This document shows positions 8,372 to 33,396 of a stretch of DNA of 33,430 nucleotides, piece after piece. The position numbers and the translations under genes were made by a program. The notes beneath the pieces were generated by a model. It made no database searches. It saw only the letters and a program-made list of their open reading frames with translations, and had not been told where the DNA came from. The stretch lies in assembly GCA_002713185.1 (NCBI GenBank), contig PAVV01000020.1, positions 16,822 through 50,251 on the forward strand, written 5' to 3'. Each line of letters starts with the position of its first letter. Position 1 is the stretch's first letter. The DNA comes from Methanobacteriota archaeon. GTDB lineage: Archaea; Thermoplasmatota; Poseidoniia; Poseidoniales; Thalassarchaeaceae.

Positions 8372-9403
8372 ATGGCTAATAGGGGCGTTCTGATGATTAA
8401 CGTTGGAACGCCGGATGAGCCGACGGTTGAGTCTGTTAGAAACTATCTCCGGGAGTTCCTTCTAGATCCGGACGTGATAGACGCCCCATACCTAATCCGG
8501 CAACTTTTGGTCAGAGGCATAATCCTGCGTGCGAGGCCGAAAAAGGTCGCACCCCTATACAAGAAAATATGGATGGCAGAAGGCTCGCCCCTGAGAGTTT
8601 ACTCAGATAGAATAGCCGAGGCTGTGTCTGAATTACTCGATGGCATACACATAGAGCATGCCATGAGGTACGGGAATCCAAGCATAAATTACGGATTGCG
8701 TAAGTTAATGCACTCTGGAGTAGAAGAACTACTCCTTCTTCCGATGTTCCCTCATCACGCTCAGGCGACCACCGAAACAGCACTGAAGCACGCTTACAAG
8801 GAACTGGAGGAGTTATCTTGGCACCCTACTATAATCGAGATGGGCCACTTCCAGACAGATGATAATTACATCACCCCGCTAGCTAGTTCGATAGAGCCAC
8901 ATCTTGATGATGATACGCACCTTCTTTTCTCATACCATGGTCTTCCTGTATCGCATGTAAAGAGGATAGACAGATCAAAGAAACACTGTCAAAAGGTGGA
9001 TAACTGTTGCAGCATCTCCTGCGATGCTAATGAGCTCTGCTACGGTCACCACTGTATGGAGACTAGTCTTGCGGTATCCGATAAACTTGGATTACCCTCA
9101 GATAGGTGGTCGATTAGCTTCCAAAGCAGGCTTGGGCCGGTGAAGTGGCTAACACCATCGACCTCTGATAAAGTGAGGGAGCTAGTTGGGAGGGGGGTTA
9201 CTAATCTAGCCATCGTAGCACCAGCCTTCCTTGCAGACGGCCTCGAGACTTTGGAGGAATTGGATATCGGAATACGAGAAGAGTTCGAAGAACATGGCGG
9301 GGAGAAGCTCACCGTCATTAAGTGCCTGAATGACAATCCAGATTGGATTGCAGGACTTACCGAGATGGTGGAAGGTAAGTTCGCTCCGTCTGTTACTGCA
9401 TGA
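8372..9403 (+). CDS. hemH: Ferrochelatase with internal cysteine-rich insert
   Basis: A 343-residue ferrochelatase, which inserts ferrous iron into protoporphyrin IX to make protoheme. The N-terminal GVLMINVGTPD, the catalytic histidine in FSYHGLP (His189) and the active-site glutamate in ADGLETLEEL (Glu291) are all present. Between the conserved His and the usual ETS/TAR helix lies an insert with six cysteines (206, 212, 213, 217, 223, 228). This resembles the internal [2Fe-2S] binding segment described in some bacterial ferrochelatases. The ATG follows a probable promoter without a ribosome binding site. The 3' end overlaps the end of the convergent hemY by 11 bases. With hemF and hemY present and no hemQ in the window, protoporphyrin rather than coproporphyrin is the expected substrate. 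Confidence 0.95.
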   Translation: MANRGVLMINVGTPDEPTVESVRNYLREFLLDPDVIDAPYLIRQLLVRGIILRARPKKVAPLYKKIWMAEGSPLRVYSDRIAEAVSELLDGIHIEHAMRYGNPSINYGLRKLMHSGVEELLLLPMFPHHAQATTETALKHAYKELEELSWHPTIIEMGHFQTDDNYITPLASSIEPHLDDDTHLLFSYHGLPVSHVKRIDRSKKHCQKVDNCCSISCDANELCYGHHCMETSLAVSDKLGLPSDRWSISFQSRLGPVKWLTPSTSDKVRELVGRGVTNLAIVAPAFLADGLETLEELDIGIREEFEEHGGEKLTVIKCLNDNPDWIAGLTEMVEGKFAPSVTA

Positions 9404-10661
9404 ACAATTCGGATATTCTCTCCGCCTCATCGACAACATGCGTCACAGAAACCCCGCTAGCAGTCCATCCAGCATATGAGAATCGCTCTTGATGATCCAG
9501 TAGGGAAGAAAGGTAACCAGGGGGATATCGGGGGATCGCCCTCTCTCCTATTTTTTGGAATATGACAGGGGCTGCCTCAAAACCAATTAGATTACTAAGT
9601 GCATCTTTAACAGTTTGATCATCACCATCCCATCTAGTATGGGGGACCATCAGTCGAAACAGCCTGTGTCCATCAGGTGCTCTATCCGAAGAATGGATAT
9701 CCGACTCGTGGAGGATGCCGCTTATTGGAATATTCGGATCCGGAATTAGGGTACCATATCCTAATTCGACTTCATTTACCTCCTCCTTTGGGTAACCAAC
9801 AGCGAAAACCGAAAGCGAACTCTCTCCGGCCTCCCTGTTCGGAAGTCCCGAAGCCCAAATTATCGAGGAGAGGGGAACTCCGTAAGCTGAAGACACCTCA
9901 TCCGGAGTTTTCTCGTTAACTTCCTTGATAATATCGACATTGTTCATCTCCGAAAGCGCATCATTAAGTCCGTGGATAATATCTTCCATTCCTCCGTCCA
10001 TAGATGCCAGACTTCCTTTCTTGGGGATGAAAATCGGGTACGAATCCGTAATCATCTTCTTCATTTTTCGGTTTCCAATTGGAGGATTCACACCAAAACC
10101 AGTTAGTCTGGGAAAAAGGAAATTTGCGTCCACTCGCTCGGCTTTATCATTCACAATCCCCAATGTCATTGCATCCGCGATTTCCTTATTTCGAAGGATA
10201 TCATAAACCGATGGACTGCCCTTCCTCGAATTAATGAGACCTCTAAGAAATCCAAATAAACCGATCTTGAAAATTGTAGACGAAGATAATCTATGCTTAC
10301 CACCCTGGAGGATCACCCATCTAGAGGATGCCGATTCCCTGGAGGGGCTGAAGGAATCTTCCATGCCTAGGTCGTCAACGAGCCTCCAGAAGGATGGATG
10401 GGGTCTCACTGCATTAACCGATATGTCACATACCCACTCTCCCTGTCTCCATGTTTTTATTACTCCACCTAGCCGATTGCTCTTCTCAAGTAGTTTGATT
10501 GGAAGATCAGGCCTAGCAGACCCGATTCGGAACGCTATCGATAGTCCGGACAATCCGCCCCCTACTATTGTCAAACTATCCGACTCATGTAGTTCTTGGC
10601 TTACGAGTAGTGGTCTCCTAAGCTCATCACCATGACGAATCCAGTCTTCCAAGGTATACAT
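9393..10661 (-). CDS. hemY: Protoporphyrinogen oxidase, FAD-dependent
   Basis: A 422-residue FAD-binding amine-oxidase-fold protein, assigned as the oxygen-dependent protoporphyrinogen IX oxidase that removes six electrons to give protoporphyrin IX. The dinucleotide motif VGGGLSGL lies at about 33-40, the acidic FAD ribose-binding residue is in LLEKSNRLGG (about 57-66), and a C-terminal FAD-binding segment is visible at YAGWTASGVSVTHVVDEA. It is somewhat short and divergent for HemY (usually 450-480). The assignment leans on its position as last gene of the heme operon, 13 bases after hemF, and on the adjacent hemH. Another FAD-dependent oxidase is possible on sequence alone. ATG start at 10661. 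Confidence 0.82.
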   Translation of the reverse strand: MYTLEDWIRHGDELRRPLLVSQELHESDSLTIVGGGLSGLSIAFRIGSARPDLPIKLLEKSNRLGGVIKTWRQGEWVCDISVNAVRPHPSFWRLVDDLGMEDSFSPSRESASSRWVILQGGKHRLSSSTIFKIGLFGFLRGLINSRKGSPSVYDILRNKEIADAMTLGIVNDKAERVDANFLFPRLTGFGVNPPIGNRKMKKMITDSYPIFIPKKGSLASMDGGMEDIIHGLNDALSEMNNVDIIKEVNEKTPDEVSSAYGVPLSSIIWASGLPNREAGESSLSVFAVGYPKEEVNEVELGYGTLIPDPNIPISGILHESDIHSSDRAPDGHRLFRLMVPHTRWDGDDQTVKDALSNLIGFEAAPVIFQKIGERAIPRYPPGYLSSLLDHQERFSYAGWTASGVSVTHVVDEAERISELFMQ

Positions 10662-10674
10662 ATCAAACCCAAGC

Positions 10675-11577
10675 CTAGGACCAATCTCTCGGTTTCCTCA
10701 GGACTGCTAGCAGACGTTCCTCATCGCTATCATCAGCCACCTCGTGACAATACTCCCACCTCGCCTCTAAGGGTAAGGACATCAGTATGCTCTCTATTCG
10801 ACCATCGGTCCTTAGTCCGAATTTTGTCCCCCTATCATGGATGAGGTTGAATTCGACGTATCTCCCTCTTCTAATCCTCTGCCACACCTTCTGTTCGTCG
10901 TCGTAATGCATTTCCTTCCTGCGATCCAAGATCGGTATATAGGACTCGAGAAAGCCAGCCGCGCATTCCTTGACGAAATCAAAGCAAGCGTCCTTTCCCC
11001 CTTCATTGAGATTGTCAAAGAAAATCCCACCGACCCCTCTTCCTTCCTTCCTGTGGGCGTTGTAGAAATACTCGTCACACCAGGCCTTGAATCTCTCATA
11101 GTCAGCAATAGCATGCCGCCCGCAAATCTTCTTGTAGACAGAGTGAAAATGCCTAGCATCCTCCTCAAACAAATAAGAGGGAGTGAGGTCAGCACCGCCT
11201 CCGAACCACCAGCTTCCCTCGCTCTCCCTGTCCCCTCTTTCGAAATATCGGTAGTTTGAGTGAACTGTAGGGGCCATCGGGTTGCTTGGGTGTAACACAA
11301 GACTGACTCCCGTAGCAAAGAACTCTAGGTTCCCTTCCGGACCTATTCCCCCGCCCATCCCGGCCGCGGCTTCCTCGCTCAGCGTACCGTGTACCATACT
11401 CACGTTTACGCCTGCCTTGTCGAAGACGGAGCCCGAGGAGAAAACTCGGCTCCTCCCTCCGCCCCCTCCTTCCCTCCGCCACTCGTCTTCCCGATAGTCG
11501 GAGTCATCGATAGACGATATCACACTGCAAATATCGTCCTGAACTTCTCTGACCATATTCACCATTCGGTCTCTCAT
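10675..11577 (-). CDS. hemF: Coproporphyrinogen III oxidase, aerobic
   Basis: A 300-residue HemF, the oxygen-dependent enzyme that oxidatively decarboxylates coproporphyrinogen III to protoporphyrinogen IX. Family marks in order are GGGGRSRVFSSG near the N-terminus, NPMAPTVHSNYRYF, WWFGGGADLTP, NAHRKEGRGVGGIFFD and RRGRYVEFNLIHDRGTKFG. The length is typical. The ATG at 11577 overlaps the hemE stop (ATGA), so the two are coupled. This cofactor-free enzyme needs molecular oxygen; it is unrelated to the radical-SAM HemN. Its presence points to aerobic heme synthesis. Confidence 0.96.
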   Translation of the reverse strand: MRDRMVNMVREVQDDICSVISSIDDSDYREDEWRREGGGGGRSRVFSSGSVFDKAGVNVSMVHGTLSEEAAAGMGGGIGPEGNLEFFATGVSLVLHPSNPMAPTVHSNYRYFERGDRESEGSWWFGGGADLTPSYLFEEDARHFHSVYKKICGRHAIADYERFKAWCDEYFYNAHRKEGRGVGGIFFDNLNEGGKDACFDFVKECAAGFLESYIPILDRRKEMHYDDEQKVWQRIRRGRYVEFNLIHDRGTKFGLRTDGRIESILMSLPLEARWEYCHEVADDSDEERLLAVLRKPRDWS

Positions 11578-12608
11578 TTGATTCCTCCTGCAACGGTTTT
11601 CAAAACTGCCTCGACGTTTTCGATCTTGGAGTCTGGAGTCATCCCATGACCCAGATTGAAAATGTGTCCTGGACGATTCCCAGCCTTCTCTAATACACTT
11701 CTAGCGGCGTCGATCGCGCCTAACTGAGAACCATGTAGGTAGGATGGATCAAGATTTCCTTGTATGGCTAAATCATTACCATAGTCTCGCCTGTTGGTGT
11801 ATAAGTCATCCCTCCAGTCGAGGGATATTGCATCGATATCCAGGCTTCGGATTTGTTCGTGTAGATGGCCGGAACCCTTAGCATAGTGGATTAACGGAAC
11901 GTCGTTTTTAGCTTTCTCTCTGAAGACTCCAATTGCACGAGCAGTCGCCTTTTTTCCAAACCTCTCATACTGCTCGGGCGAAAGTAATCCAGCCCAGGTA
12001 TCGAATAATTGGACCGCGTCAGCTCTTCCGTAATTGACTTGGTCAGCTAATAAGTCCCCGACTACGTCGGCTACTCTTCCAAGCAATTCGTCAGCCATTT
12101 TTGTATTGGAGAAAATACTCGCTCTAGCGCTATGAAAGTCCTTGTCTCCGGTACCACCCGATAACAGGTACATCGAGATTGTCCATGGGCAACCTGCAAA
12201 ACCTAATCTAGCCTTGGTATCTCCTAATTCGCCTATTTCAGCGAGGGCGTCTGCGGCCCAGGGAGCGTCTTTCCTTGCGTTAAAATCAGCCCAGTCATCA
12301 ATCTGTTCAAAATCAAACTTGTCAATTCTAATTCCGTTTCCGTATCTAACTTCGTAACCGAGAGCAGGCAGGGGGGTCAAAATGTCACTGAACACGATTG
12401 CAGCGTCAATCTCCGGGTATCTATCCAAAGGTTGGAGTGTTATTTTGCTACAAATATCGACATCCATACATCTTGTCCAAAAGTCCTTCTCCTTCGCGAT
12501 CTTTCGATACTCTGGGAGATGCCTTCCTGCTTGACGCATGAACCAAACAGGTACTCTGTCGACCTCGGTTTTATTCAGAGCGGCAAGCAACCTCTCCTTT
12601 CCTTCCAT
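11574..12608 (-). CDS. hemE: Uroporphyrinogen decarboxylase
   Basis: A 344-residue HemE, which decarboxylates the four acetate side chains of uroporphyrinogen III to give coproporphyrinogen III. The signature MRQAGRHLPEYR at 24-35 carries the substrate-binding arginines (25, 29), the catalytic aspartate is Asp75 in FSDILTPLPALG, and the C-terminal NLGHGMTPD holds the conserved histidine. The gene starts at the base directly after the hemL stop and overlaps hemF by four bases. Having HemE instead of relying on siroheme decarboxylation places this organism on the classical heme route. Confidence 0.96.
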   Translation of the reverse strand: MEGKERLLAALNKTEVDRVPVWFMRQAGRHLPEYRKIAKEKDFWTRCMDVDICSKITLQPLDRYPEIDAAIVFSDILTPLPALGYEVRYGNGIRIDKFDFEQIDDWADFNARKDAPWAADALAEIGELGDTKARLGFAGCPWTISMYLLSGGTGDKDFHSARASIFSNTKMADELLGRVADVVGDLLADQVNYGRADAVQLFDTWAGLLSPEQYERFGKKATARAIGVFREKAKNDVPLIHYAKGSGHLHEQIRSLDIDAISLDWRDDLYTNRRDYGNDLAIQGNLDPSYLHGSQLGAIDAARSVLEKAGNRPGHIFNLGHGMTPDSKIENVEAVLKTVAGGIK

Positions 12609-13904
12609 TTAATCACCGATCTCGATAAGTGCTTCTTCTAGCGCTGCGGCCATGCCTGTGATGTTATCTTCACTGTGAGCTGTCGACAGGAAACCGATCT
12701 CATATGCTGATGGCGCCAGCATATATCCTCGCGCCAGCATCCCTCTGTGCAGGTCGGCATAAACCTCTCCTGCCGCGGCTGGGATTTGATCTGCCCTCCT
12801 AGGTGGTTCACCATCCCCCGGTGAGAACCAGAAAAGGCTCCCCATCCTAACAAGCCTGAATGGGTTTCCTTTCTCCTCGAGTATGGGCACCACCAAATCT
12901 TCAAGTGTCCCTCCCAAAGAGTCTAGCAAGTCATAGGCTGCCTCATCCAAGAGGTCTAATGTCGAGCTGCCAGCTACCATTGCTAGCGGGTTCCCTGAGA
13001 GTGTTCCTGCCTGGTAGACGGGTCCCAACGGAGACAAATGCTGCATTACCTCTTCCCGAGCCCCATAGGCACCAACGGGAAGCCCCCCTCCGATTACCTT
13101 CCCCAAAGCGGTGATATCAGGAGTGACTCCACAAACCTCCTCATATCCTCCATTTCTGAATCTGAACCCACTAATCACTTCGTCGAAGACCAGTAGAGCG
13201 CCATCCTCCTCACACACTTCCTTTATTTGTTCGAGAAACTCATTCCTTTGTATCAAAAGACCGTTATTCGCGGGCAAGGGCTCGATGAGGACCGCAGCGA
13301 TCTTTCCTGGATACTCCTCGAACAGATAACGAAGAGCACCTATGTCATCTAGCGGACAAACAAGAGTGGTCGATATGGTGGACTCCGGAATACCGGGACT
13401 GCTGGCGATGCCGAAAGTGGCAAGCCCGCTTCCAGAACTGACCAGTAGAGAATCTATGTGGCCATGATAGCAGCCATCAAACTTTACTATGTGGTCTCTG
13501 CCAGTTACTCCACGAGCTAGCCTTACCGCGCTCATTGCTGCTTCAGTCCCCGATGACGTAAATCGCACCATGTCAATGTGCGGAAATCGTTGCTTAACCC
13601 TCTTAGCGAGCTCAATCTCTCCCTTATGAGGGGCCCCGAATGAGGTCCCTTTAGACATCGTTTCTGCTATTGTTTTGATAATCTGGGGATGGGAATGGCC
13701 GTGAATAAGCGGGCCCCATGACTGCACGAAATCGACATATTGGTTACCATCCACGTCGATAACCGTAGCGCCGCTTGCCTCCTTGAAGTATACTGGATTT
13801 CCATGGACCGACTTAAACGCCCTCACTGGAGAATTAACTCCTCCAACAAGATGGTTTTGTGCTTCTGAATGCAGTGACTCTGAGACGGGCCTTTCCACAA
13901 TCAC
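12609..13904 (-). CDS. hemL: Glutamate-1-semialdehyde 2,1-aminomutase
   Basis: A 431-residue class III PLP aminotransferase that converts glutamate-1-semialdehyde to 5-aminolevulinate. The PLP Schiff-base lysine is Lys269 in ALGKVIGGGLPVGAYG, and the pyridine-nitrogen aspartate is Asp241 in FDEVISGFRF. The N-terminal GGVNSPVRAFKSV is diagnostic for GSAM against other class III enzymes. The start appears to be GTG at 13904, seven bases after the hemB stop begins the spacer. It is in the middle of the heme operon, so supply of aminolevulinate and later steps are co-expressed. Confidence 0.96.
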   Translation of the reverse strand: MIVERPVSESLHSEAQNHLVGGVNSPVRAFKSVHGNPVYFKEASGATVIDVDGNQYVDFVQSWGPLIHGHSHPQIIKTIAETMSKGTSFGAPHKGEIELAKRVKQRFPHIDMVRFTSSGTEAAMSAVRLARGVTGRDHIVKFDGCYHGHIDSLLVSSGSGLATFGIASSPGIPESTISTTLVCPLDDIGALRYLFEEYPGKIAAVLIEPLPANNGLLIQRNEFLEQIKEVCEEDGALLVFDEVISGFRFRNGGYEEVCGVTPDITALGKVIGGGLPVGAYGAREEVMQHLSPLGPVYQAGTLSGNPLAMVAGSSTLDLLDEAAYDLLDSLGGTLEDLVVPILEEKGNPFRLVRMGSLFWFSPGDGEPPRRADQIPAAAGEVYADLHRGMLARGYMLAPSAYEIGFLSTAHSEDNITGMAAALEEALIEIGD

Positions 13905-13910
13905 ACCAAC

Positions 13911-14888
13911 CTAGACCCAGCCTTCGCGAACAGCCTCTCTGGCGTGGTAACTGACAATAATGTCAGCACCGGCCCTTTTGAATGATCCAAGGACCTCTAG
14001 GACAACCCTCTTTCGTTGTTCTATTTCCTTTGCATAACTCATAACCATGGAATACTCACCACTTACGTTGTAGACCGCCACAGGCCTCTCGATATTAGCT
14101 GCAACCTCCCTGAGGACATCAAGATAAGAGAGGCCAGGCTTGACCATCGAAATGTCACAACCTTCCTTGACGTCTTCTTTGGCCTCTAGTATTGCCTCTC
14201 TATAGTCCGACCTTACATCCATCTGATGGCTTGAACGATCTCCAAATGCTGGGGCCGACGATGCAGCATCTCTGAAAGGGCCGTAGAACGAGGATGCGTA
14301 TTTGACAGAGTATGACATTATCCCGGTCGATTTCATACCCTCCTTCTCCAATGCCGTCCTGACGGCACCAACCCTGCCATCCATCATGTCAGAGAGACAG
14401 ACATAGTCGGCACCTACCCTTGCATGAGACAAGGATATGCGCACCAACATTTCGACTGAGGGGTCGTTGACGATATCCTGACCGTCCAAAAGCCCACAGT
14501 GTCCATGGTCAGTAGAAGTGCAAAGGCAAGCATCAGTCATCAGAACTATCTCATTGCCAAATTTCTGCTTCAAATCTCCTACGACTAGTTGTAACGGCAT
14601 CTCGTCATCTGCTGCCCTTGTGCCTAGGGAATCCTTCTCATTGTCATCCATTACGGGGAAGATCATGTGTGCTGCGATACCCATTGAGACGTCTTCAGCA
14701 ATCGTTCTTACCAGTACGTCCTTCGATTGACGATTGACTCCTGGCATTCCTGGGATTTCTTCGTTGACATCCTCACCACTTACTACAAAATGCGGTTGCA
14801 CTAGCGACTCAGCGATCGATGGACCATAAACCAGATTTCTTCTGGATTCTGTCCATCTATTTATTCTCGGCCTAATCTTCAATTTCAC
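13911..14888 (-). CDS. hemB: Delta-aminolevulinic acid dehydratase (porphobilinogen synthase)
   Basis: A 325-residue HemB that condenses two aminolevulinate molecules into porphobilinogen. The zinc-site cysteines are present: Cys121, Cys123 and Cys131 in DACLCTSTDHGHCG, so this is the zinc-dependent type rather than the magnesium type. The two active-site lysines are Lys196 (SVKYASSFYGPFR) and Lys250 (SMVKPG), the latter forming the Schiff base. The GTG start at 14888 lies 17 bases inside the end of hemCD, so translation is probably coupled; no later Met offers a good start. The stop is six bases before the hemL GTG. Confidence 0.96.
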   Translation of the reverse strand: MKLKIRPRINRWTESRRNLVYGPSIAESLVQPHFVVSGEDVNEEIPGMPGVNRQSKDVLVRTIAEDVSMGIAAHMIFPVMDDNEKDSLGTRAADDEMPLQLVVGDLKQKFGNEIVLMTDACLCTSTDHGHCGLLDGQDIVNDPSVEMLVRISLSHARVGADYVCLSDMMDGRVGAVRTALEKEGMKSTGIMSYSVKYASSFYGPFRDAASSAPAFGDRSSHQMDVRSDYREAILEAKEDVKEGCDISMVKPGLSYLDVLREVAANIERPVAVYNVSGEYSMVMSYAKEIEQRKRVVLEVLGSFKRAGADIIVSYHAREAVREGWV

Positions 14889-16581
14889 GCCCCTCCACTT
14901 TCGATTTCCAAAAACTTGTGATGTAATCTACAGTAGGCCCCTCCAGAGTTATAATTTCACATCCTACGAAATAAGGTATTGTTTCAACAGTTTCTGTGGT
15001 GCTTTTCCCCATTGATAACACAGTTTTTGGAACCTTCAACCTATTACTAGACCACGATTCAGCCGAAGACGAGGAAGAGATTAGCAGGACATCCTCCTCA
15101 CTTAATGAACAGGTATCGGGGGTAATCGACATATTTTCGTAAGCAATCCAATGCTCTACACCGAACCCTTTCTCCATTAGGGATTCAATGAACCGATAGT
15201 CTGATTTTGATGATCTAGGGACGTACAAAGAAGTCTCGCGTTTAACATTGGACACTATGTATTCCAATAACTGCTCGCTATTGCCCACCATCCCACAATG
15301 CGAAACGGTAACGCCTTCCTCAAAGCACGCTTTGTGAGTGCCTTCTCCGAGGGCAAGCCATGCTATTTGTCCAATTTCTGGATTTATCTTTGATACCTCC
15401 ACAGCACATTTAGCCGCAAATGGGGAAGTAAGAACTAGAATTGGCCATCTTGACCTAACTCCAAATTGTTCCAGAAATCTAACTGGCCAGTTATCAATCA
15501 AGGGCCTCAGTTTAACCACAGGCACATTTAGTGTCGGCACACCTTCTTTTCTTAGCTGGGAAGTAAGCCTGTCTGAAGTAAGTGTGGTGACGAGTTTTGG
15601 AGAATCTTTCGGAAAACTCTGTACGTGCTTTTCTTCAGCCTCATTTGATGTAAAATTAAATCCCTCAGTATCACCAATATATCTATGGATTTTGTAAGTA
15701 TCACCCCGAGAGTAACGAGTCCTCCAATCTTTAGGGGATATCGCGGCAGTTATCACTCCGCCTTCAGACTTTATTCCAGCGGGAAAAAGACAACCGCCCC
15801 CAATCAAGCCCAATAGGGATCTTTCTTTTGACACATCCTCCTCAGTTGGTATATGATTCAATATAGTTCGTAATTCACAAAATCTTTCCTCGTCTTGCAC
15901 TCTGCAATTCACAGCAATAGCGCCTTGGCCGGGAGCAGTTGGCCAATCCTTTTCTTTTATCCTCAAGGCCTTTAATTCGAGTGCTTCCTTGGTGATATGG
16001 CCTGCATTGTAAAGACGGCTGATGCCTACTTCGGCCAATATTAGATAGTCAACGAGATTCTCTATCAGCCTATTCATCCGAGTCTCGATATGTCCCCTGA
16101 CAGATATGGGGATGATATCTGGTCTGGAACTAAGCAAGAAAGATTGCCTCCGTCCAGCAACAGTTCCAATCTTAGATTTCATTGGTACACTTTTCATAAT
16201 CGAGATTAGGCTTTTCGATCGACTAGACTCTAGGACTTCACGAAGACTTGGCCACTCTTCGATACCATTAGCCAGGATGAGGTCGCTAGTCACATCTCTT
16301 TCCGTATAGGCTAGAGTATTGACTCCACTCATCCCTTCAATGGGAATATCCTTCGCTGAATGTACAGTTATATCGACAGCCCCTTCAATCAGAGCCTCAT
16401 CAATTCCATGCACGAATTGACCAACATTGGATGAGAGGTCACCTCCTAATGACCTGTCACCAAGACTGCTCAGAGTTTTTATCTCACACCGAATTCCACT
16501 CAATTTCAACTGCTTTTCAACTTCCATCGCTTGGAGGATGGCCAGTTTCGAGCCCCTAGTCCCTACTATCAATGGTTTCAC
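14872..16581 (-). CDS. hemCD: Fused porphobilinogen deaminase / uroporphyrinogen III synthase
   Basis: One 569-residue frame joins two enzymes. Residues 1 to about 305 are HemC: the catalytic aspartate is Asp78 in VHSAKDIP, GRRQSFLL is the substrate arginine region, and Cys264 in GGGCLFPAG carries the dipyrromethane cofactor. Residues about 325-560 look like HemD, with ILVLTSPFAAKCA, the LALGEGTHKA helix, SLYVPRSSKSDY and LLISSSSSAESW in family order. The fusion would hand hydroxymethylbilane straight to ring closure, which prevents spontaneous formation of uroporphyrinogen I. No internal stop or frameshift is seen. The start is GTG at 16581, two bases after the hemA stop. Bacterial HemC-HemD fusions are known, so this could be inherited by transfer. 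Confidence 0.92.
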   Translation of the reverse strand: MKPLIVGTRGSKLAILQAMEVEKQLKLSGIRCEIKTLSSLGDRSLGGDLSSNVGQFVHGIDEALIEGAVDITVHSAKDIPIEGMSGVNTLAYTERDVTSDLILANGIEEWPSLREVLESSRSKSLISIMKSVPMKSKIGTVAGRRQSFLLSSRPDIIPISVRGHIETRMNRLIENLVDYLILAEVGISRLYNAGHITKEALELKALRIKEKDWPTAPGQGAIAVNCRVQDEERFCELRTILNHIPTEEDVSKERSLLGLIGGGCLFPAGIKSEGGVITAAISPKDWRTRYSRGDTYKIHRYIGDTEGFNFTSNEAEEKHVQSFPKDSPKLVTTLTSDRLTSQLRKEGVPTLNVPVVKLRPLIDNWPVRFLEQFGVRSRWPILVLTSPFAAKCAVEVSKINPEIGQIAWLALGEGTHKACFEEGVTVSHCGMVGNSEQLLEYIVSNVKRETSLYVPRSSKSDYRFIESLMEKGFGVEHWIAYENMSITPDTCSLSEEDVLLISSSSSAESWSSNRLKVPKTVLSMGKSTTETVETIPYFVGCEIITLEGPTVDYITSFWKSKVEGREIED

Positions 16582-16583
16582 AC

Positions 16584-17963
16584 TCAGGCCCCCTCACTAG
16601 GGGTTCCTTCCATGGACAGGATAGTTTCATTTACGTCATTGGCGAGTTTATTGAGTAAATCATCGCTCAGATTTCGAGTCGTTCCAGTTACGAAATCATT
16701 GAGATCGGATAGGTTGAATTCTCCGTTGGTTTGGCAAATCCAGCCCGCGATCTCTCTACAAAAAGCTTTGATTTGCGCCCTCTCGCTCGAGAGAATAGAA
16801 CTCGAGCTTTCCCATATTTGCGATTTTTCGTCCATCTTGGCATAAACGAAAGAGCGAAAATTCGCCTGTGACAGGTTTTTCAGTGCCATTTGGAAGTTAT
16901 CTTCGACCGATGCGATGACTTCCTCCCCTTTTTCCAGAGTCTCGTCGTAATTCCAATCTATCCCAAGTTTCCGAGATCTACGAATCCAATGTTCCATATC
17001 GTAGATAGTGTCCTCAGGATGTAGGCTACCGGGGGCAAAGGAGGATGGCCATGAGAAATCCATTACAGTAATACTCTTATTTCTAGGAAATGGATTATTC
17101 AATGTGAAGGTTGGTTTTTTATTCCTCAATGTCGATATAACAAGGTCCGCCTCTCCAGCTGACTCGACCCATTGTTCTAGGGTCATAATATCGCATCTTT
17201 CGGATAGGTAGGGATATCGAGAAGAGGAAATTTCAGGGTCGCGAGATATTACTGTAATGGACTTTTGATTTTGTTGAATGAGTGACTCTACTGCTTTGGA
17301 CCCCATCTCTCCAAAACCAAGAACGAGATTGTTAAGCTGCTTATTTCCATCAATCATTTCAGCCATAGCGTTAGTACCCAAGTTAAGCATCGACTCCGCG
17401 GTTTTATCGAAACCCATTTCCTTTCGTACGATTCTGTTTGCAGCGATGACATGATCAAATAGCGCACAATTAACCGATGAAATGTGGTTATTTTGCTTGT
17501 GCCAAGAGACAGCATCTCTAAATTGCCCCATGACTTGAAGTTCACCTACAATAAATGAGTCCAGACCACTACATATTCTCACTAAATCTCTCCAAACCGC
17601 CATTCCGTCTGACTTCCGAAACGGTGCTGCAAAGACTCCGATAACTTCCTCGATAGCTAGGATCAACTCTTCCGCCTTCACGCCGAAACCGACGTATAGG
17701 ACCCTGTTACAAGTCGAAAACTCAAATACTTCTCCCCCTGTAAAACCTCGTAGTTTAGAGACGAGTTCGTTTTTCTCAAAATCTGACATGCCTTCGCTGG
17801 TTAGGGCCTCAACTGATTCTTTTGTGTCTGAGTCTAGCTTCATAGAAACCATACAAATCCCATCCATTAATGACTCGCCATTTGCATGGGAAGACGCCGT
17901 TTTGTCAGTAGTGAATGAGGTTATATCCGATATATTCACCCTTACGTTCGGACCCTTCAGCAT
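16584..17963 (-). CDS. hemA: Glutamyl-tRNA reductase
   Basis: A 459-residue HemA, the NADPH-dependent enzyme that starts the C5 route to tetrapyrroles by reducing glutamyl-tRNA to glutamate-1-semialdehyde. The nucleophile is Cys85 in FSTCNR, followed by GLDSFIVGELQVMGQFRDA, the NADPH-binding LVLGFGEMGSKA and a helical C-terminal dimerisation region. The residue pair after STCNR is V-L instead of the usual x-E. The Cys is at 85 rather than about 50, so there is an N-terminal extension of roughly 35 residues or the true start is internal (Met33 or Met38). I chose ATG 17963 because GTGAGGTGGTG lies directly before it; GTG at 17972 is also possible. It is the first gene of the operon. Confidence 0.92.
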   Translation of the reverse strand: MLKGPNVRVNISDITSFTTDKTASSHANGESLMDGICMVSMKLDSDTKESVEALTSEGMSDFEKNELVSKLRGFTGGEVFEFSTCNRVLYVGFGVKAEELILAIEEVIGVFAAPFRKSDGMAVWRDLVRICSGLDSFIVGELQVMGQFRDAVSWHKQNNHISSVNCALFDHVIAANRIVRKEMGFDKTAESMLNLGTNAMAEMIDGNKQLNNLVLGFGEMGSKAVESLIQQNQKSITVISRDPEISSSRYPYLSERCDIMTLEQWVESAGEADLVISTLRNKKPTFTLNNPFPRNKSITVMDFSWPSSFAPGSLHPEDTIYDMEHWIRRSRKLGIDWNYDETLEKGEEVIASVEDNFQMALKNLSQANFRSFVYAKMDEKSQIWESSSSILSSERAQIKAFCREIAGWICQTNGEFNLSDLNDFVTGTTRNLSDDLLNKLANDVNETILSMEGTPSEGA

Positions 17964-18195
17964 TACCACCACCTCACTCTATACTTGACAATGCCCATTA
18001 TACGAATCTTTGTTATTTCTATGCTGTAACTTTTTGACTCACGGAGGATCATAATCTCAGTGAGGTTATAACTGAAACCTGACCATGTTTTGGTAATAAT
18101 ATTATGTCAAGGCCACATTCAATAAAATCATTAGATCATTGCATCAGTCACCATGTTCCAAACAAAAGGTAAATCTGAGTACCATGAATTACTAA
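17964..18195 (-). promoter_or_regulatory. Upstream region of the heme operon
   Basis: This 232-base stretch between gpsA and hemA is the longest non-coding stretch in the window and must hold the heme operon promoter. On the - strand AGAGTGAGGTGGTGGTA directly precedes the hemA ATG and serves as ribosome binding site. A TATA-like CGTATAATGG lies around 17995-18005. The distal half is AT-rich and could also hold the gpsA terminator region boundary, although gpsA is transcribed away from a separate start. No clear riboswitch or palindromic operator was recognised. Confidence 0.45.
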
Positions 18196-19209
18196 CTATT
18201 CTACCTCATACGCTCCAGCCATCTTTCTCACTGCATCTTCTACCGTGATATCCCCGTCCAGAAGCAACCCCAGTGTCTTTAGGAATGGCGTTTGAAAGCC
18301 AATTCTTGCGGATCTGTTCAGGAACATCCTTGTCGCCCTGACTCCCTCGGCAACCATGTGCATCTCCTCCAGAGATTCTTCCAGGCCCTTTCCTGAGCCC
18401 AGCATCTCTCCAAGAGTTCTGTTCCTACTCCTTGGGCTGGTTGCTGTGACGTAGAGATCACCAATTCCCGCTGGTCCGAAAGCCGTATTCGGATCAGCTC
18501 CCATTTCCTCTAGAAGTCCAAGTCCCTCGCTGTAGCCGGACAGCACCATTGCGGCCTTCAAATTGTCACCTCCGATTGTGTCTTTCAAACCGTCCACTAG
18601 TCCGCATGCTAGGGCGACGCAATTTTTGTACGCGCCCCATAGCTCGGCTCCTACCGGATCTCCAGCGGGAGTAAGAATTAGAGAATCGGTTGATAGCCTC
18701 TCTGCCACCCTCTTTGCAACTACCGTATCATGACAAGCCACCAAGGCGTTAGTTATCACGCCCCTAGCTACTTCCGGAGCGATAGTAGGACCTGTCATTA
18801 CGACAACTTGGTTCGACATGCTAGCGTCCGAAAGCCTTCTCTCTATTGCGTCGGAAATCAATCCCGAGCCCCCTTCTGAGGAGGGTGCAAGACCTTTGGC
18901 GAGATCAACAATCAGATGGGATGGCCTCAGATTTGGAATAAGCAGGTCCACCACTCCAAGTATCACAGAGCTGGGAAGTGCCAGAACCAGAATCTCACAA
19001 GAATCAGTTACATCGGTAATCTCCATCGTACAGTCCATCTCTGGGATTTTGTACCCCGGCAGGTACTTCTTGTTCTCCTTAGAGTTCATCATCGACTCAT
19101 ATACATCTTGCTCGACGGTCCATCCAAGCACATTGTGTCCATCCTTGCACCACACAAGAGCCAGTGCCGTCCCCCAGTTGCCTAGTCCGAGAATCCCTAT
19201 TCGTGCCAT
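18196..19209 (-). CDS. gpsA: NAD(P)-dependent glycerol-3-phosphate dehydrogenase
   Basis: A 337-residue GpsA, which reduces dihydroxyacetone phosphate to sn-glycerol-3-phosphate, the backbone of bacterial-type phospholipids. The N-terminal GILGLGNWGTALA is the Rossmann motif, LPS in LALPSSVI marks the nucleotide domain, the active-site lysine is in WGAYKNCVALACGL, and GIGDLYVTATSPRSRNR is the C-terminal signature. The start is ATG at 19209. Most archaea make glycerol-1-phosphate with an unrelated enzyme; G3P dehydrogenases have been reported in Marine Group II, where the G1P enzyme appears missing. The gene stands alone, divergent from tRNA-Leu and upstream of, but separated by 232 bases from, the heme operon. 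Confidence 0.95.
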   Translation of the reverse strand: MARIGILGLGNWGTALALVWCKDGHNVLGWTVEQDVYESMMNSKENKKYLPGYKIPEMDCTMEITDVTDSCEILVLALPSSVILGVVDLLIPNLRPSHLIVDLAKGLAPSSEGGSGLISDAIERRLSDASMSNQVVVMTGPTIAPEVARGVITNALVACHDTVVAKRVAERLSTDSLILTPAGDPVGAELWGAYKNCVALACGLVDGLKDTIGGDNLKAAMVLSGYSEGLGLLEEMGADPNTAFGPAGIGDLYVTATSPRSRNRTLGEMLGSGKGLEESLEEMHMVAEGVRATRMFLNRSARIGFQTPFLKTLGLLLDGDITVEDAVRKMAGAYEVE

Positions 19210-19310: not shown

Positions 19311-19395
19311 GCAGGGGTACCCGAGTGGTCAAAGGGGCTGGGTTTAGGTCCCAGTGCGTAGTGCTTCGCAGGTTCAAATCCTGCCCCCTGCACCA
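19311..19395 (+). tRNA. tRNA-Leu (anticodon TAG), CCA encoded
   Basis: The cloverleaf can be drawn directly. Acceptor stem GCAGGGG (19311-19317) pairs with CCCCTGC (19385-19391), followed by discriminator A and an encoded CCA. The anticodon stem CTGGG/CCCAG (19338-19342 and 19350-19354) holds the loop TTTAGGT, anticodon TAG at 19345-19347, reading CUA and other CUN leucine codons. The T arm is GCAGG-TTCAAAT-CCTGC (19368-19384). The 13-base variable region (19355-19367) is long, as expected for a class II leucine tRNA. Only four bases separate the 3' end from the stop codon of the convergent protease gene. Confidence 0.95.
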
Positions 19396-19399
19396 CAAT

Positions 19400-22300
19400 C
19401 TATTGGATCCTGATTCTTTTGGATCTGAGTTTCGTGACTCCCCTATCCTTCCAATTGATTGCCCTGTAACCCATAAATCCTATGAATGCGATGGACGATA
19501 CAATTGCTATCCATGCTTCAGAGCTCAGAGGCCTCCCTGGGTCCTTGCTCCAAACTCCGAATCCATCTGCTCCAAGATCTCCATCAACTATGTCCAGAAT
19601 GCCATCATTGTCGTCGTCTACATCATAGTAGTCTGAGATGCCGTCTCCGTCGGTGTCTACCGCGGTTTCCGAGGAGGGAATTTCTGCCCCATCTCCGCTA
19701 TCAGTCTCTATTATTCCAATATCATCCCCGGGAAGTACTTTCACAGGGCACCCTAACTCGTTTCCTGGTAGAGCAATCAGTTCGATCATATTGTCCATGG
19801 AGGGGTTAATTCCGGCTTCATAGGGGCACTCGTCGGTGTTGTCCCCTATTCCGTCAGAGTCCGAGTCCTGCCATTCCGTCGAATCGTTGGGGAAAAGGTC
19901 CCTATTGTCACCTATGTTGTCACCGTCTGTATCATTCCATTCTGAAGGATCAAGGCTGAATGCATCAACAGTGTCATTGTAACCATCATTATCATCATCG
20001 GTATCATTCTGGTCTCCTATGCTGTCTCCATCGGTATCATACCAATTATACTCATCGAGAGGAAATGCGTCTCCATTGGGGAGTGCGATACAGTCTGACA
20101 GTCCATCATCATCCAGATCAGGAGGGCTCCCTTCATAGGAATCCTTTGGATCATCGCACAGTCCATCATTGTCGTCGTCCGGATCCGCATTATCACCGAA
20201 CGTGTCCCCGTCAAAGTCGGACCATTCCTCTGGGTTGTCAGGGAATACATCGAACCAATCGGATCTGCCATCCCCATCATCATCGTTGTCTGTATTGTCT
20301 CCTATGCCATCCCCATCGCCGTCTTTCCACTCTGCTTGATTATTTGGGAAGGCATCTTCAGTATCGTTGAAACCATCATTATCGTCATCCAGGTCTATAC
20401 TGTCAGGGATATTATCTCCATCAGAGTCAGCAGAAATATTCGGATCTAACCAGTCGAAATCTTGGGTATTGGGAACCCCATCGTTATCTGCATCGCTATC
20501 AAACTGATCAGGGATCTTATCCCCGTCGAAGTCGTTCATGCAATTATCGAAGTTTGTCGAACCCAGGTTTAGAGTAGATTGTCCATCGGGACAGGCAGTC
20601 TGGGTCACTGCTTCGAACTCTGAAACATAGAACCCTAGAGAGGCTAGAGTGCAAGTAGCTTGCCCTTTCAGACTGGAGTAAGTACCTCGAGTACAACCGA
20701 TTTGCTCCAGTTCTCCCGAATAAGGGACGCTGAAACCCCTGTCAGCTAGAATGCATGAGGTCTGTGAGGAATTAGGCTGGTAAGTTCCGGGGGAACAGGG
20801 AAGCTGTTCTTTCGATCCATGCCCCAGGTCTATCACGGTAGGTGAATACCTGTTAGTGGTCGAACCATCTCCTACTTGGCCTTTCGAGTTGATTCCCCAG
20901 CACTGCAGACTGGCGTCTGTAAGTATGGCGCATGAATGCCTATGTCCCACAGAAATTGAAAGCACCTCGTGATCTAGGACTAAGGTTTTTGGAAGGTGCC
21001 AACCACCGGATATCGGCGTACCATCACCTATCTGCCCATATGCGTTGTCGCCCCAGCAAGACATCTCTCCAGAGTCGAATAGTGCGCATGAATGGAAGAG
21101 ACCAACTTGGATATCTGTTGGGGATTGAGTGGAGTCAAGTGGTACTGGCATCGGAATCCCCGCTCGCGTAGTTCCTCCGTTTCCAAGTTGCCCATACGAG
21201 TTGTATCCCCAACAGTACATCGATCCGTCGTTCATGCCAACACAGGAATGGAATGCCCCAGAATCAACAGTCACTGCACTGCTGTTGCTCGGAATTTCGA
21301 TATCTACTGGACTCAACTTATCACTAAATGAACCATCGCCCAATTGGCCGTGCCAGTTGTCGCCCCAGCATCTTAATGACCTATCTGCCATTATAGCACA
21401 CGTATGGTAGGAACCAGATGAGACTTCATGCACTCCCGCATCACCCAATGGAACGCTTGTTGGGGCGTGCCTCTCTGAACGACTTCCATCACCAAGCTGC
21501 CCGTTGCTGTTATCTCCCCAACACATGAGGCTCGTATCCTCCATGACCGCACATGTGTGGGACTCTCCAGCTGATATGCTGAGAGCGACTCCTCCACTAA
21601 GATCAGCACTGACTGCAGTCAGCCTCTCCAAAGTGGTCCCATCCCCTAGCTGGCCGAACTCATTCGATCCCCAACATCGGACAGAACCGTCGTCCATTAG
21701 TGCACAGGAGTGGTATGATCCAGAGCTGATTTCGGACACTGTTCTACCCAACGGCATGATTGCCTTTTCGGGTTGATGATGATCTGTTCTGGTCCCATCC
21801 CCTAGCTGCCCGTTGCTGTTCTCCCCCCAGCAGCTAACAGATCCATCGTCAAGAATCGCACAACTGTGAAGTGCTCCCGACGAAACCTGCGTGAGCACTG
21901 GGACACTGTGCCCCGCCTCAGCCCAGTTGCAGGCATCTGCCGAGATTTGACCGTATTCGTCATTATATTTTCCTGCAGGACATGGCGTACCTTCTGATGC
22001 CCCAGGATCTGAAACGAAGTATCCTGGTCTGGCATCTTCGCAGGAGGTCTGGGCTGGGAGCTCTTGGAATTCTCCAGGAGAGCAGAGGGACTGATCGGTA
22101 GCCCCGTAGGTGTCGGTGTAATGGCCGGGGGTTGTTGGCGTCATTACGGTACTTCCGAGTGTGCTGACGTAGTAACCGGGAGTAGCTTGCCTGCAGGTGA
22201 AACGCCCATATTCTCCCGTGCCACAGCTAGCAGCAACTGTGGGATTCGTGTCATCACTGTCCAATCCCACGGGAAAGCCATCCCCATCCATATCCGAGGC

Positions 22301-31661: not shown

Positions 31662-32456
31662 ATGGGAGATCAACTTTCCAGTCGCATGGAAACCATTCTC
31701 CCGGGTGGTAAGGGGGTTTGGATGCCCATGGACCACGGAGCATCCCGATTCCCCGAGTCTGGCCTTGAGGATACCATTTCGGCGGTAGATGCAGCTATTG
31801 AAGGTGGGGCGGATGCGATAATAATGCACAAGGGGCCAGTAAGCTACCACTCAATTCGTACAGGATGGAATCGTTTTGTCTGTCACACCTCTGTTTCTAC
31901 CGTTCATGGGGGGGCTCGCTCTCAGGACAAGATTCTAGTTGCAGCTGTATCTGAATGCATATCCAGAGGGGCAATAGCAGTCTCAGCACAGGTCAATTTA
32001 GGCGATCCCGCAGAACCAGAAATGATTGAGAGAATCGGTAAAATTACCACAGAAGCTCAGAAAATGGAAATCCCTGTATTGGGGATGTTCTATCCCAGAG
32101 GTCCAAATCTTTCTTTGGATGATTCCGACTCAACTGGTGGAATTGCCCATGCCGCTAGACTAGCTTGGGAGTTAGGTTGTAACGTGGTAAAGGTACCTTG
32201 GACCGGTTCAGAGGAATCATTCGAAATCGTAACATCTTCAGTACCAATCCCAGTTCTTCTATCTGGCGGCCCGAAAAAACTTACAAATTCAGACCTACTA
32301 AAGCTTGTCGAAAAATCAGTTTATTCTGGAGGATCGGGTGTCTGTATGGGAAGATATATCTTTAATTCGCACGATCCTTCTTCTCTAATCAGATCTCTAA
32401 GAGCTATAGTCCACGATGGAGCTAATTCCGAAGAGGCATCGAGATATCTGAGGTGA
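31662..32456 (+). CDS. aroA': 2-amino-3,7-dideoxy-D-threo-hept-6-ulosonate synthase
   Basis: A 264-residue class I aldolase-fold enzyme of the archaeal FBA/ADH-synthase family. ADH synthase makes the aromatic precursor from a 6-deoxy-ketohexose phosphate and aspartate semialdehyde, replacing DAHP synthase in many archaea. Family marks are WMPMDHGAS near 20-28 with the conserved aspartate, GMFYPRGPN with the catalytic tyrosine, and the Schiff-base lysine in NVVKVPWTG. Sequence alone cannot fully exclude archaeal fructose-bisphosphate aldolase. The following gene, type II dehydroquinate synthase, acts on the product of ADH synthase, which settles the call. ATG start at 31662. Confidence 0.88.
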   Translation: MGDQLSSRMETILPGGKGVWMPMDHGASRFPESGLEDTISAVDAAIEGGADAIIMHKGPVSYHSIRTGWNRFVCHTSVSTVHGGARSQDKILVAAVSECISRGAIAVSAQVNLGDPAEPEMIERIGKITTEAQKMEIPVLGMFYPRGPNLSLDDSDSTGGIAHAARLAWELGCNVVKVPWTGSEESFEIVTSSVPIPVLLSGGPKKLTNSDLLKLVEKSVYSGGSGVCMGRYIFNSHDPSSLIRSLRAIVHDGANSEEASRYLR

Positions 32457-32460
32457 GAAA

Positions 32461-33396
32461 TTGCAGATCTGGCTAGATTCGCCGACAAATGACTATTCCG
32501 GAAATAATACTGTAAGTAGGCTTTGGAGGGGTGGTTCTAGTGATGTTTCGGAGGTATTTATCGAGAACTCATTTGATCAGGAAGATGCAATATCATTAAT
32601 CGGTTTAGTCCCATGGATTCTAGTAAGATTTTCTGACTGGACAATGGTTCCATTAGAGAATCTGATTGCTAGCTCTAGAGGTTCAGGAACAAGAATAGCC
32701 GTGGCAATAGAAGACAAAATAGAATTGAATGGAGCAGTATATTCACTTGGTGGAGGGGTGGATGCCGTCTTGGTTTCCTCAGACCTAGTCGATGAAGCAG
32801 CAATTATGGTCGGGGAAAGGCTGGAATTTGAAGAGGGAGAAAAGGAAATAGAACTTTCAATTCTTCATGCAGAGGTAACATCCGTCGAATCGGCAGGAAT
32901 TGGAGAAAGGGTTTGCATAGATCTAACTAGAAGGATCCAAATCGGCGAGGGAATACCTGTAGGTTCTCTTTCAAGCAGCCTCTGTCTTGTTCATGGTGAG
33001 ACTATCTCTTCTGATTACGTACCCACTAGGCCATTTAGAGTAAATGCTGGAGCTATCCATTCCTATATTCTTCTTTCCAATGGGAAGACTAAATATCTCA
33101 GTGAATTGATATCAGGCGACGAAGTAGCCGTGGCTTCAGAGTCAGGATTACAAGGGTCTGCAACCATTGGGAGATTGAAAATTGAAACAAGACCTCTTAT
33201 TTTAATTAGGTTTAGGGTTGACGGAAAAAAAGGACAAATCGTGGTTCAACAGGCAGAGACTGTTAGATTGGTAAGCCCTTCGAAAGAGCCAATTTCAGTC
33301 ACGGCTTTGTCCGAAGGGGACTCTATATCAATAATTTCAGATTCTAGAATGCGTCATGTAGGAATTGCAGTTGAATCAAAGGTGGTGGAAAAGTGA
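32461..33396 (+). CDS. aroB': 3-dehydroquinate synthase type II
   Basis: A 311-residue archaeal-type dehydroquinate synthase, which oxidatively deaminates and cyclises the ADH synthase product to 3-dehydroquinate. The C-terminal block RPFRVNAGAIHSYI is the family signature, and GERVCIDLTRRIQIGEG..VGSL matches its central region. The protein is shorter than usual (family about 340-380), the missing length being mostly N-terminal. The start is TTG at 32461, four bases after aroA', with GAGGTGAG upstream. The stop overlaps the next gene's GTG by four bases. This is an aroA'-aroB' operon. Confidence 0.92.
   Translation: MQIWLDSPTNDYSGNNTVSRLWRGGSSDVSEVFIENSFDQEDAISLIGLVPWILVRFSDWTMVPLENLIASSRGSGTRIAVAIEDKIELNGAVYSLGGGVDAVLVSSDLVDEAAIMVGERLEFEEGEKEIELSILHAEVTSVESAGIGERVCIDLTRRIQIGEGIPVGSLSSSLCLVHGETISSDYVPTRPFRVNAGAIHSYILLSNGKTKYLSELISGDEVAVASESGLQGSATIGRLKIETRPLILIRFRVDGKKGQIVVQQAETVRLVSPSKEPISVTALSEGDSISIISDSRMRHVGIAVESKVVEK

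Follow-up and report, generated by a model that had tools for sequence, protein, structure and literature searches.

Background

Few differences between Archaea and Bacteria run as deep as the handedness of the lipid backbone, and an order of ocean archaea that has only the bacterial-type enzyme offers a natural test of whether a lineage can cross the lipid divide. The closest described system is Ca. Poseidoniales (Marine Group II, MGII) itself, in which Rinke et al. 2018 (PMC6461757) reported the G1P-backbone enzyme (EgsA) in 0 of 270 MAGs and a G3P dehydrogenase in all genera except Q1, with mixed membranes as a possible outcome. A sequence-only reading of the locus described here had noted that GpsA without EgsA was already on record for Marine Group II, and it is indeed stated in PMC7852524 and PMC6962369 as well. 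The MGII G3P dehydrogenase of Rinke 2018 (and of Villanueva 2017, as cited) is the same gene in the same order as ours; in what Rinke et al. report we found no difference in the gene, and the present genome is a further member. Neither the gene nor its setting is an artefact, and both have been described before; the pattern of GpsA without EgsA is likewise published.

Three other systems offer partial parallels. Bacterial GpsA (PRK00094; PDB 3k96, 1z82) shares both domains, the nucleotide motif, the catalytic lysine, the substrate residues and the length of the protein studied here, but the host in our case is an archaeon and MGII GpsA forms its own clade on a long stem, with 30.9-35.9% identity between the window GpsA and the 20 bacterial plasmid-collection rows listed. 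GpsA of the same family also occurs in other Thermoplasmatota, in 10 of 141 phylum genomes outside the class, but these proteins are only 25-37% identical to the window GpsA, the five best matches group in a clade of their own, and in at least G157, G183 and G208 the gene stands alongside a strong EgsA-family match. Ca. Cloacimonetes are alike in carrying GGGP synthase (GGGPS)-type genes without EgsA or AraM but differ in being bacteria, and the authors who describe them lean towards G1P, of unknown origin, as the product (PMC7852524).

Identity and genomic setting of gpsA

The window, by which we mean the whole 33,430-nucleotide stretch of DNA that was analysed (G000:C20:16822-50251), belongs to a 1.35 Mb draft genome (G000) of 44 contigs that is 72% complete. 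Its gpsA (G000:C20:35020-36030; Table 1) is a complete open reading frame, ATG to stop, on the minus strand, and the plus strand of the same interval holds many stops. The sequence-only reading had called this gene GpsA with no strand given, a call upheld by the open reading frame, the domains, the subfamily models and the PDB match. Pfam recognises NAD_Gly3P_dh_N (PF01210, 120.2 bits against a cut-off of 23.1), NAD_Gly3P_dh_C (PF07479, 122.5 against 25) and GPD_NAD_C_bact (PF20618, 58.6 against 27.6). Among NCBIfam models the protein passes two subfamily cut-offs, those of NF000942 (NAD(P)H-dependent glycerol-3-phosphate dehydrogenase; 259.1 bits, cut-off 257) and NF000940 (210.1, cut-off 202), and scores below the cut-offs of the equivalog models. 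The top PDB sequence match is 3k96 (GpsA), with an E value of 2.3e-37 over query residues 4-330.

The functional motifs, which the same reading had judged intact (GLGNWG, GPTIAPE, YKN, GIGDL, SRNR), are all present, with key residues kept in 79-80 of 80 MGII sequences, namely our own and those of 79 of 80 named loci, the partial L268 being left out. K195, which we take to be the catalytic lysine, aligns with the lysine of PDB 3k96 and 1z82; D251 presumably belongs to the substrate site and R262/N263 to phosphate binding, and we regard GxGxxG together with the catalytic Lys, the Asp and the Arg-Asn substrate residues as hallmarks of GpsA. Judged on its sequence, the product is a genuine GpsA, predicted to reduce dihydroxyacetone phosphate (DHAP) to sn-glycerol-3-phosphate (G3P) with NAD(P)H.

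Table 1. Positions of the features discussed (window coordinates unless a contig is named)
Feature	Position	Strand	Basis or remark
gpsA, NAD(P)H-dependent glycerol-3-phosphate dehydrogenase, 337 aa	18196..19209	-	ORF, Pfam, NCBIfam, PDB matches
GLGNWG dinucleotide-binding motif, residues 8-13	19171..19188	-	G8, G10, N11, W12, G13 80/80; L9 79/80
GPTIAPE motif, residues 140-146	18772..18792	-	seven residues each 80/80
YKN, residues 194-196	18622..18630	-	K195 79/80, N196 80/80
GIGDLYVT, residues 248-255	18445..18468	-	D251, T255 80/80
SRNRTLG, residues 261-267	18409..18429	-	R262, N263, R264 80/80
tRNA-Leu	19311..19395	+	beside gpsA
Haem cluster: HemA, HemCD fusion, HemB, HemL, HemE, HemF, and a flavin amine-oxidoreductase-like protein	9393..17972	-	downstream of gpsA
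DeoC/LacD-family aldolase and 3-dehydroquinate synthase II	31662..33396	+	marks contig as archaeal
EgsA of f3 family	G147:C17 (L296:4602-5645)
EgsA of f3 family	G222:C25 (L297:4941-5981)
EgsA of f3 family	G273:C15 (L298:4858-5922)

A 72% complete draft in 44 contigs might be suspected of carrying gpsA as a bacterial contaminant of the bin or through an assembly chimera, but we consider this so improbable that we reject it. Orthologues 54-93% identical to the window protein occur in 136 of the 145 genomes of the order, its own included; one lies in the single-contig MG-II chromosome CM001443.1 (L254), and others lie in isolates with names such as AG-422-I18, a style that we take to be that of single-cell genomes. 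The top bacterial row among the plasmid-collection matches listed reaches 35.9% identity. In a named genome collection, 93 contigs encode a relative, and the 80 loci kept are titled Marine Group II, Poseidoniales, Poseidoniaceae/Poseidonia, Thalassarchaeaceae/Thalassarchaeum, or simply Euryarchaeota archaeon or uncultured euryarchaeote. The closest relatives with names belong to Ca. Poseidoniales, the group of Thermoplasmatota that includes Thalassarchaeaceae. One locus, L214, repeats the window order of S8 protease, GpsA, HemA, HemCD, HemB, HemL and HemE, and this recurrence of the haem-cluster gene order speaks against a chimera; at the remaining named gpsA loci the neighbour genes vary. The contig is archaeal and not bacterial, and the archaeal context assumed in the sequence-only reading holds on the strength of the locus titles, the L214 gene order and 3-dehydroquinate synthase II, whose pairing with the aldolase we take to be an archaeal-type aromatic pathway.

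The neighbourhood has features of its own. A protoporphyrin-type haem pathway in an archaeon spans window positions 8372-17972, with HemH in addition to the enzymes of the tabulated cluster. Adjoining gpsA is a 2179-aa subtilase with many RCC1 repeats (19400-25939, minus strand), which finds a match in 19 of the 80 gpsA loci, many of these loci being cut short. No lipid gene was recognised among the gpsA neighbours in the profile-scanned window ORFs or in ten ORFs of L254 and L216. An operon of gpsA with lipid genes was therefore rejected; the cytidylyltransferase-like ORF among those ten (L254:3357-3980) sits between riboflavin genes.

Distribution of EgsA and GpsA

EgsA was searched for with two profiles, and neither the family profile PF13685 nor the equivalog NF002022 exceeds its cut-off in any of the 145 genomes of the order or, within these, in any of the 33 that reach at least 90% completeness with no more than 5% contamination. 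Of 14 known control genomes, 13 match PF13685, all over cut-off, and 13 match NF002022, 3 of them over cut-off. An egsA gene in the window's own genome would have spoken against the sequence-only reading; that genome has no match to either profile, which alone means little at its completeness. Weak PF13685 matches occur in ten genomes of the order, and the six that were read (L003-L008) were rejected as hidden EgsA: five are lipid-kinase-like (YegS/DAGK-like) and one is AroB (L005, in G045), with L003 and L005 checked by profile and the remaining four judged by eye. The single weak NF002022 match in the order falls at the same place in G045. The AroB-type 3-dehydroquinate synthase there (L005:787-1905, minus strand, on G045:C19) is of a kind distinct from the type II enzyme carried by the window genome, and its contig is possibly a contaminant.

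GpsA is nearly universal over the same genomes. The window protein matches 137 of 145, so that the gene is not a chance one, although G007 matches at 26% identity only; at a threshold of at least 54% identity 136 have an orthologue and the other 9 are without one. Among the 33 best genomes 31 have a match, G007 included. G002, 96% complete and assembled as a single contig, carries both GpsA and GGGP synthase, and neither EgsA profile matches it. A second GpsA-like match in the window's own genome (on C29) was set aside as, by eye, a 3-hydroxyacyl-CoA dehydrogenase. For G3P oxidation by GlpA/GlpD, the DAO_C profile (PF16901) matches 0 of 145 genomes and only 6 of 14 controls, none of them archaeal, and GlpA-like forms could escape it.

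In a sample of 194 genomes from the phylum, the 48 inside the order (a count that depends on the order in which unmatched genomes are listed) comprise 0 with EgsA over cut-off and 46 with GpsA, G007 at 26% included. The 146 outside the order comprise 133 with PF13685 over cut-off, which is not always EgsA since the family also matches in bacteria, and 10 with GpsA. Fisher tests of this sorting by clade, in which ancestry is ignored, give p = 3.7e-32 and 7.2e-34, and the sorting may be one event.

A sister family with EgsA and the phylogeny of GpsA

The phylum sample holds five genomes of a sister family in the same class as the order (f3), and none of the five matches GpsA. EgsA is strong in three of them (G147, G222 and G273, which score 430-438 bits where the EgsA cut-off is 413), marginal in G278 and not found in G212. 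In G222 and G147, where the neighbourhood was profile-scanned, the order is universal stress protein, ribosomal protein S3Ae, Na/solute symporter and EgsA, and the G273 region aligns to that of G222 at 74% over 6.9 kb. Ribosomal protein S3Ae is archaeal/eukaryotic, so bacterial contamination is unlikely as the source of these genes. G147 also carries a gene for a Ras-like small GTPase near EgsA (L296:8879-9415).

Because the GTDB class Poseidoniia consists of Poseidoniales and MGIII, f3 is probably MGIII. MGIII is described as lacking the G1P enzyme in PMC6737245 and PMC6962369, and if f3 is MGIII, its EgsA contradicts these printed claims. A literature search turned up no printed correction of them, which is weak evidence.

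A tree of 30 GpsA rows, seven of them bacterial, places 14 MGII orthologues in one clade with support 100/100 and a stem of 1.8, which fits a single acquisition of the MGII orthologue. The five best-matching sequences from other Thermoplasmatota form a separate clade and two further Thermoplasmatota rows fall elsewhere, and the divergent extra GpsA-like copies of two MGII genomes, G035:C16 (L282, 33% identity to the window protein) and G007:C45 (L285, 26%), lie outside the MGII clade. Nine forks are open, as is the basal branching, and the 30 rows point to no donor. The likely place of the swap of EgsA for GpsA, added by this analysis, is close to the root of the order: gpsA would have entered Ca. 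Poseidoniales there, at the point where EgsA was lost, and would have been inherited since.

GGGP synthase and the source of the backbone

GpsA is the only one detected of the two DHAP routes searched (EgsA and GpsA) and is thus the most likely supplier of the lipid backbone. We consider it somewhat probable that it supplies that backbone as G3P, which would be consumed by the retained GGGP synthase, an enzyme with known weak G3P activity, and/or by PlsC-family acyltransferases. By published accounts, the GGGPS of M. maripaludis can use G3P with an eightfold lower affinity, and DGGGPS takes G3P-based GGGP (PMC9385802).

GGGP synthase itself was among the genes to which the sequence-only reading had pointed, and it is present in the window's own genome (on G000:C30; 197.6 bits against the TIGR01769 cut-off of 161.55), over cut-off in 119 of the 145 genomes of the order with that genome included, and in 26 of the 33 best. 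We examined 87 sequences from 85 of the 119 genomes, with the frame chosen by the EAGSG motif and no fetched locus left out. The Tyr/Tyr/Glu associated with G1P selectivity is kept in 87 of 87, one Tyr and the Glu in Y-L-E-A-G-S-G and the other Tyr in G/A-Y-x4-P-G; taking the first Tyr of the three from the latter motif is our own assignment, and the review numbering for the M. thermautotrophicus enzyme (Y134/Y178/E180) stands at no constant offset from the PDB chain (130, 172, 174). At 58 of 75 near-invariant positions the MGII enzymes are identical to that of M. thermautotrophicus. The MGII GGGPS thus bears no sign of adapting to G3P, a suggestive point that this analysis adds. Three such residues are credited with both stereospecificity and catalysis (PMC9385802), so their conservation is suggestive and not decisive for G1P selectivity. 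The enzyme at L015:1477-2271 (minus strand) and its MGII homologues carry roughly 18-19 additional residues between GGS and LFP; the two motifs stand 44-45 positions apart in 83 of the 87 sequences, where two PDB relatives have 26 and 27.

With these residues kept, a G3P membrane does not follow from gpsA alone; nor does it in light of the report that E. coli makes G1P lipids without EgsA or AraM (PMC7852524). The main rival explanation builds on both points: the G3P from GpsA would serve head groups, redox balance or acyl-glycerol chemistry, and the ether backbone would be G1P made by an unrecognised enzyme, of the kind that E. coli must possess. The archaeal pathway is described as highly stereoselective for G1P (PMC7852524), and the stereochemistry used by the archaeal head-group enzyme is given as unknown (PMC9385802), both of which would suit such an arrangement. 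We nevertheless hold it to be unlikely, since none of the 145 genomes exceeds the cut-off of PF13685, a profile that also matches E. coli and B. subtilis, and as far as that profile reaches, close homologues of EgsA and AraM are therefore missing. The catalytic role of the Tyr/Tyr/Glu residues likewise means that their conservation need not signify G1P selectivity. We know of no candidate enzyme for a hidden source of G1P.

A fuller form of the preferred reading, in which GpsA supplies G3P for the backbone, can be put forward tentatively and with less confidence than that reading itself: EgsA would have been exchanged for a bacterial GpsA near the root of Ca. Poseidoniales, inverting the handedness of the backbone, with the sister family keeping EgsA and no GpsA and with the GGGPS selectivity residues unchanged. 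If true, nature would have crossed the lipid divide within a single class, at a point that can be dated. The contrast between f3 and the order offers a matched pair of an EgsA lineage and a GpsA lineage. The likely position of the swap and a GGGP synthase that shows no change, which are added here, sharpen the question of handedness and do not settle it.

The 26 genomes of the order in which GGGP synthase was not found cluster in the genera g16 (3 of 3) and g7 (9 of 12), and GpsA is present in 11 of the 12 g7 and all 3 g16 genomes (for example, G024 and G016). Contig ends are not a general reason for missing GGGPS, since 30 of 67 matches lie at most 6 kb from an end where 26.9 are expected; among 24 contigs longer than 60 kb, 8 lie near an end against 2.3 expected, and an assembly break near GGGPS is likely in some lineages. 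In G024 (g7), the GGGPS neighbours were sought in 56 stretches, which cover about 0.2 of 1.3 Mb. There the left neighbour begins some 3.7 kb from a contig start, nearer than the 7.7 kb between this neighbour and GGGPS in its congener G052, and the right neighbour was not found in those stretches. Four 20-kb stretches scanned around GGGPS contain no Rfam or tRNA features. If GGGP synthase is truly gone in g7 and g16, classical ether lipids could hardly be made there.

Acyltransferases and the possibility of hybrid lipids

The acyltransferases that the sequence-only reading had likewise raised give a divided picture. PlsY (PF02660) is found in 0 of the 145 genomes of the order and in 8 of 14 controls, which leaves the usual bacterial route to ester lipids incomplete, whereas the PlsC family (PF01553) is found in all 145. 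Archaeal PlsC and PlsY are reported mainly from environmental lineages, Marine Groups II/III, DPANN and Asgard (PMC6431249); in this order we find the former and not the latter. The window's own genome has two PlsC-family open frames, of 266 and 510 aa, and the 266-aa frame scores only below the cut-offs of NCBIfam acyltransferase models (TIGR00530, 56.8 against 102.95).

These genes invite another explanation, which overlaps the preferred one in its use of GpsA and differs in the acceptor: MGII lipids may be chiefly bacterial-like or hybrid, with G3P acylated by the PlsC family, possibly after GGGPS has attached one isoprenoid ether chain, so that the PlsC ester completes the lipid. A lipid with one ether and one ester was the idea of Villanueva 2017, as cited in PMC6962369, and with PlsY absent, GGGPS or a second acyltransferase is the sole visible maker of the single-chain intermediate. 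We judge it improbable, and more so than a hidden source of G1P. Hybrid lipids were not in high abundance in the data of PMC6962369, and the second ether step looks available: UbiA-family proteins occur in all 37 genomes searched, and those of the window genome are a haem-o synthase, a menaquinone/ubiquinone-type enzyme and a DGGGPS-like protein (L138), the last below both equivalog cut-offs (NF009523, 169.4 against 269; NF009521, 157.7 against 296). PlsC-family proteins are also present in the three EgsA-bearing f3 genomes searched; the family is thus not tied to the loss of EgsA, and this suggests that PlsC did not arrive together with GpsA.

For the reading that we prefer, with GpsA as the supplier of a G3P backbone, we count the identity of the enzyme, the distribution of EgsA and GpsA, the single MGII clade, the PlsC-family proteins in every genome, the reported use of G3P forms by GGGPS and DGGGPS and the finding that bacterial PlsC, like PlsY and unlike PlsB, takes both stereo-forms (PMC13400652). 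Against it we count the GGGPS residues kept in every sequence, the 26 genomes with no GGGPS found, the absence of PlsY, the 9 genomes without a GpsA orthologue and the lack of a recognised lipid gene near gpsA, as well as a precedent, the claim that Lokiarchaeota are without the G1P enzyme, later overturned by more genomes (PMC6737245). Field lipid data on MGII conflict. In the waters studied in PMC6962369, MGII are reported as no significant contributors to GDGTs and archaeol, and no known archaeal intact polar lipids are attributed to them there; on the other side, PMC7291766 reports a circumstantial link between MGII and GDGTs. Tetraether synthase is reported in 1 of 231 MGII MAGs (PMC8941075).

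The longer of the two acyltransferases in the window genome is one of a set of long PlsC-family frames (about 495-545 aa) that includes G000:C26 (L101:598-2127), G002:C1 (L098:1369-2991) and others. In the five of these that were Pfam-scanned, the acyltransferase domain is the sole recognised part.
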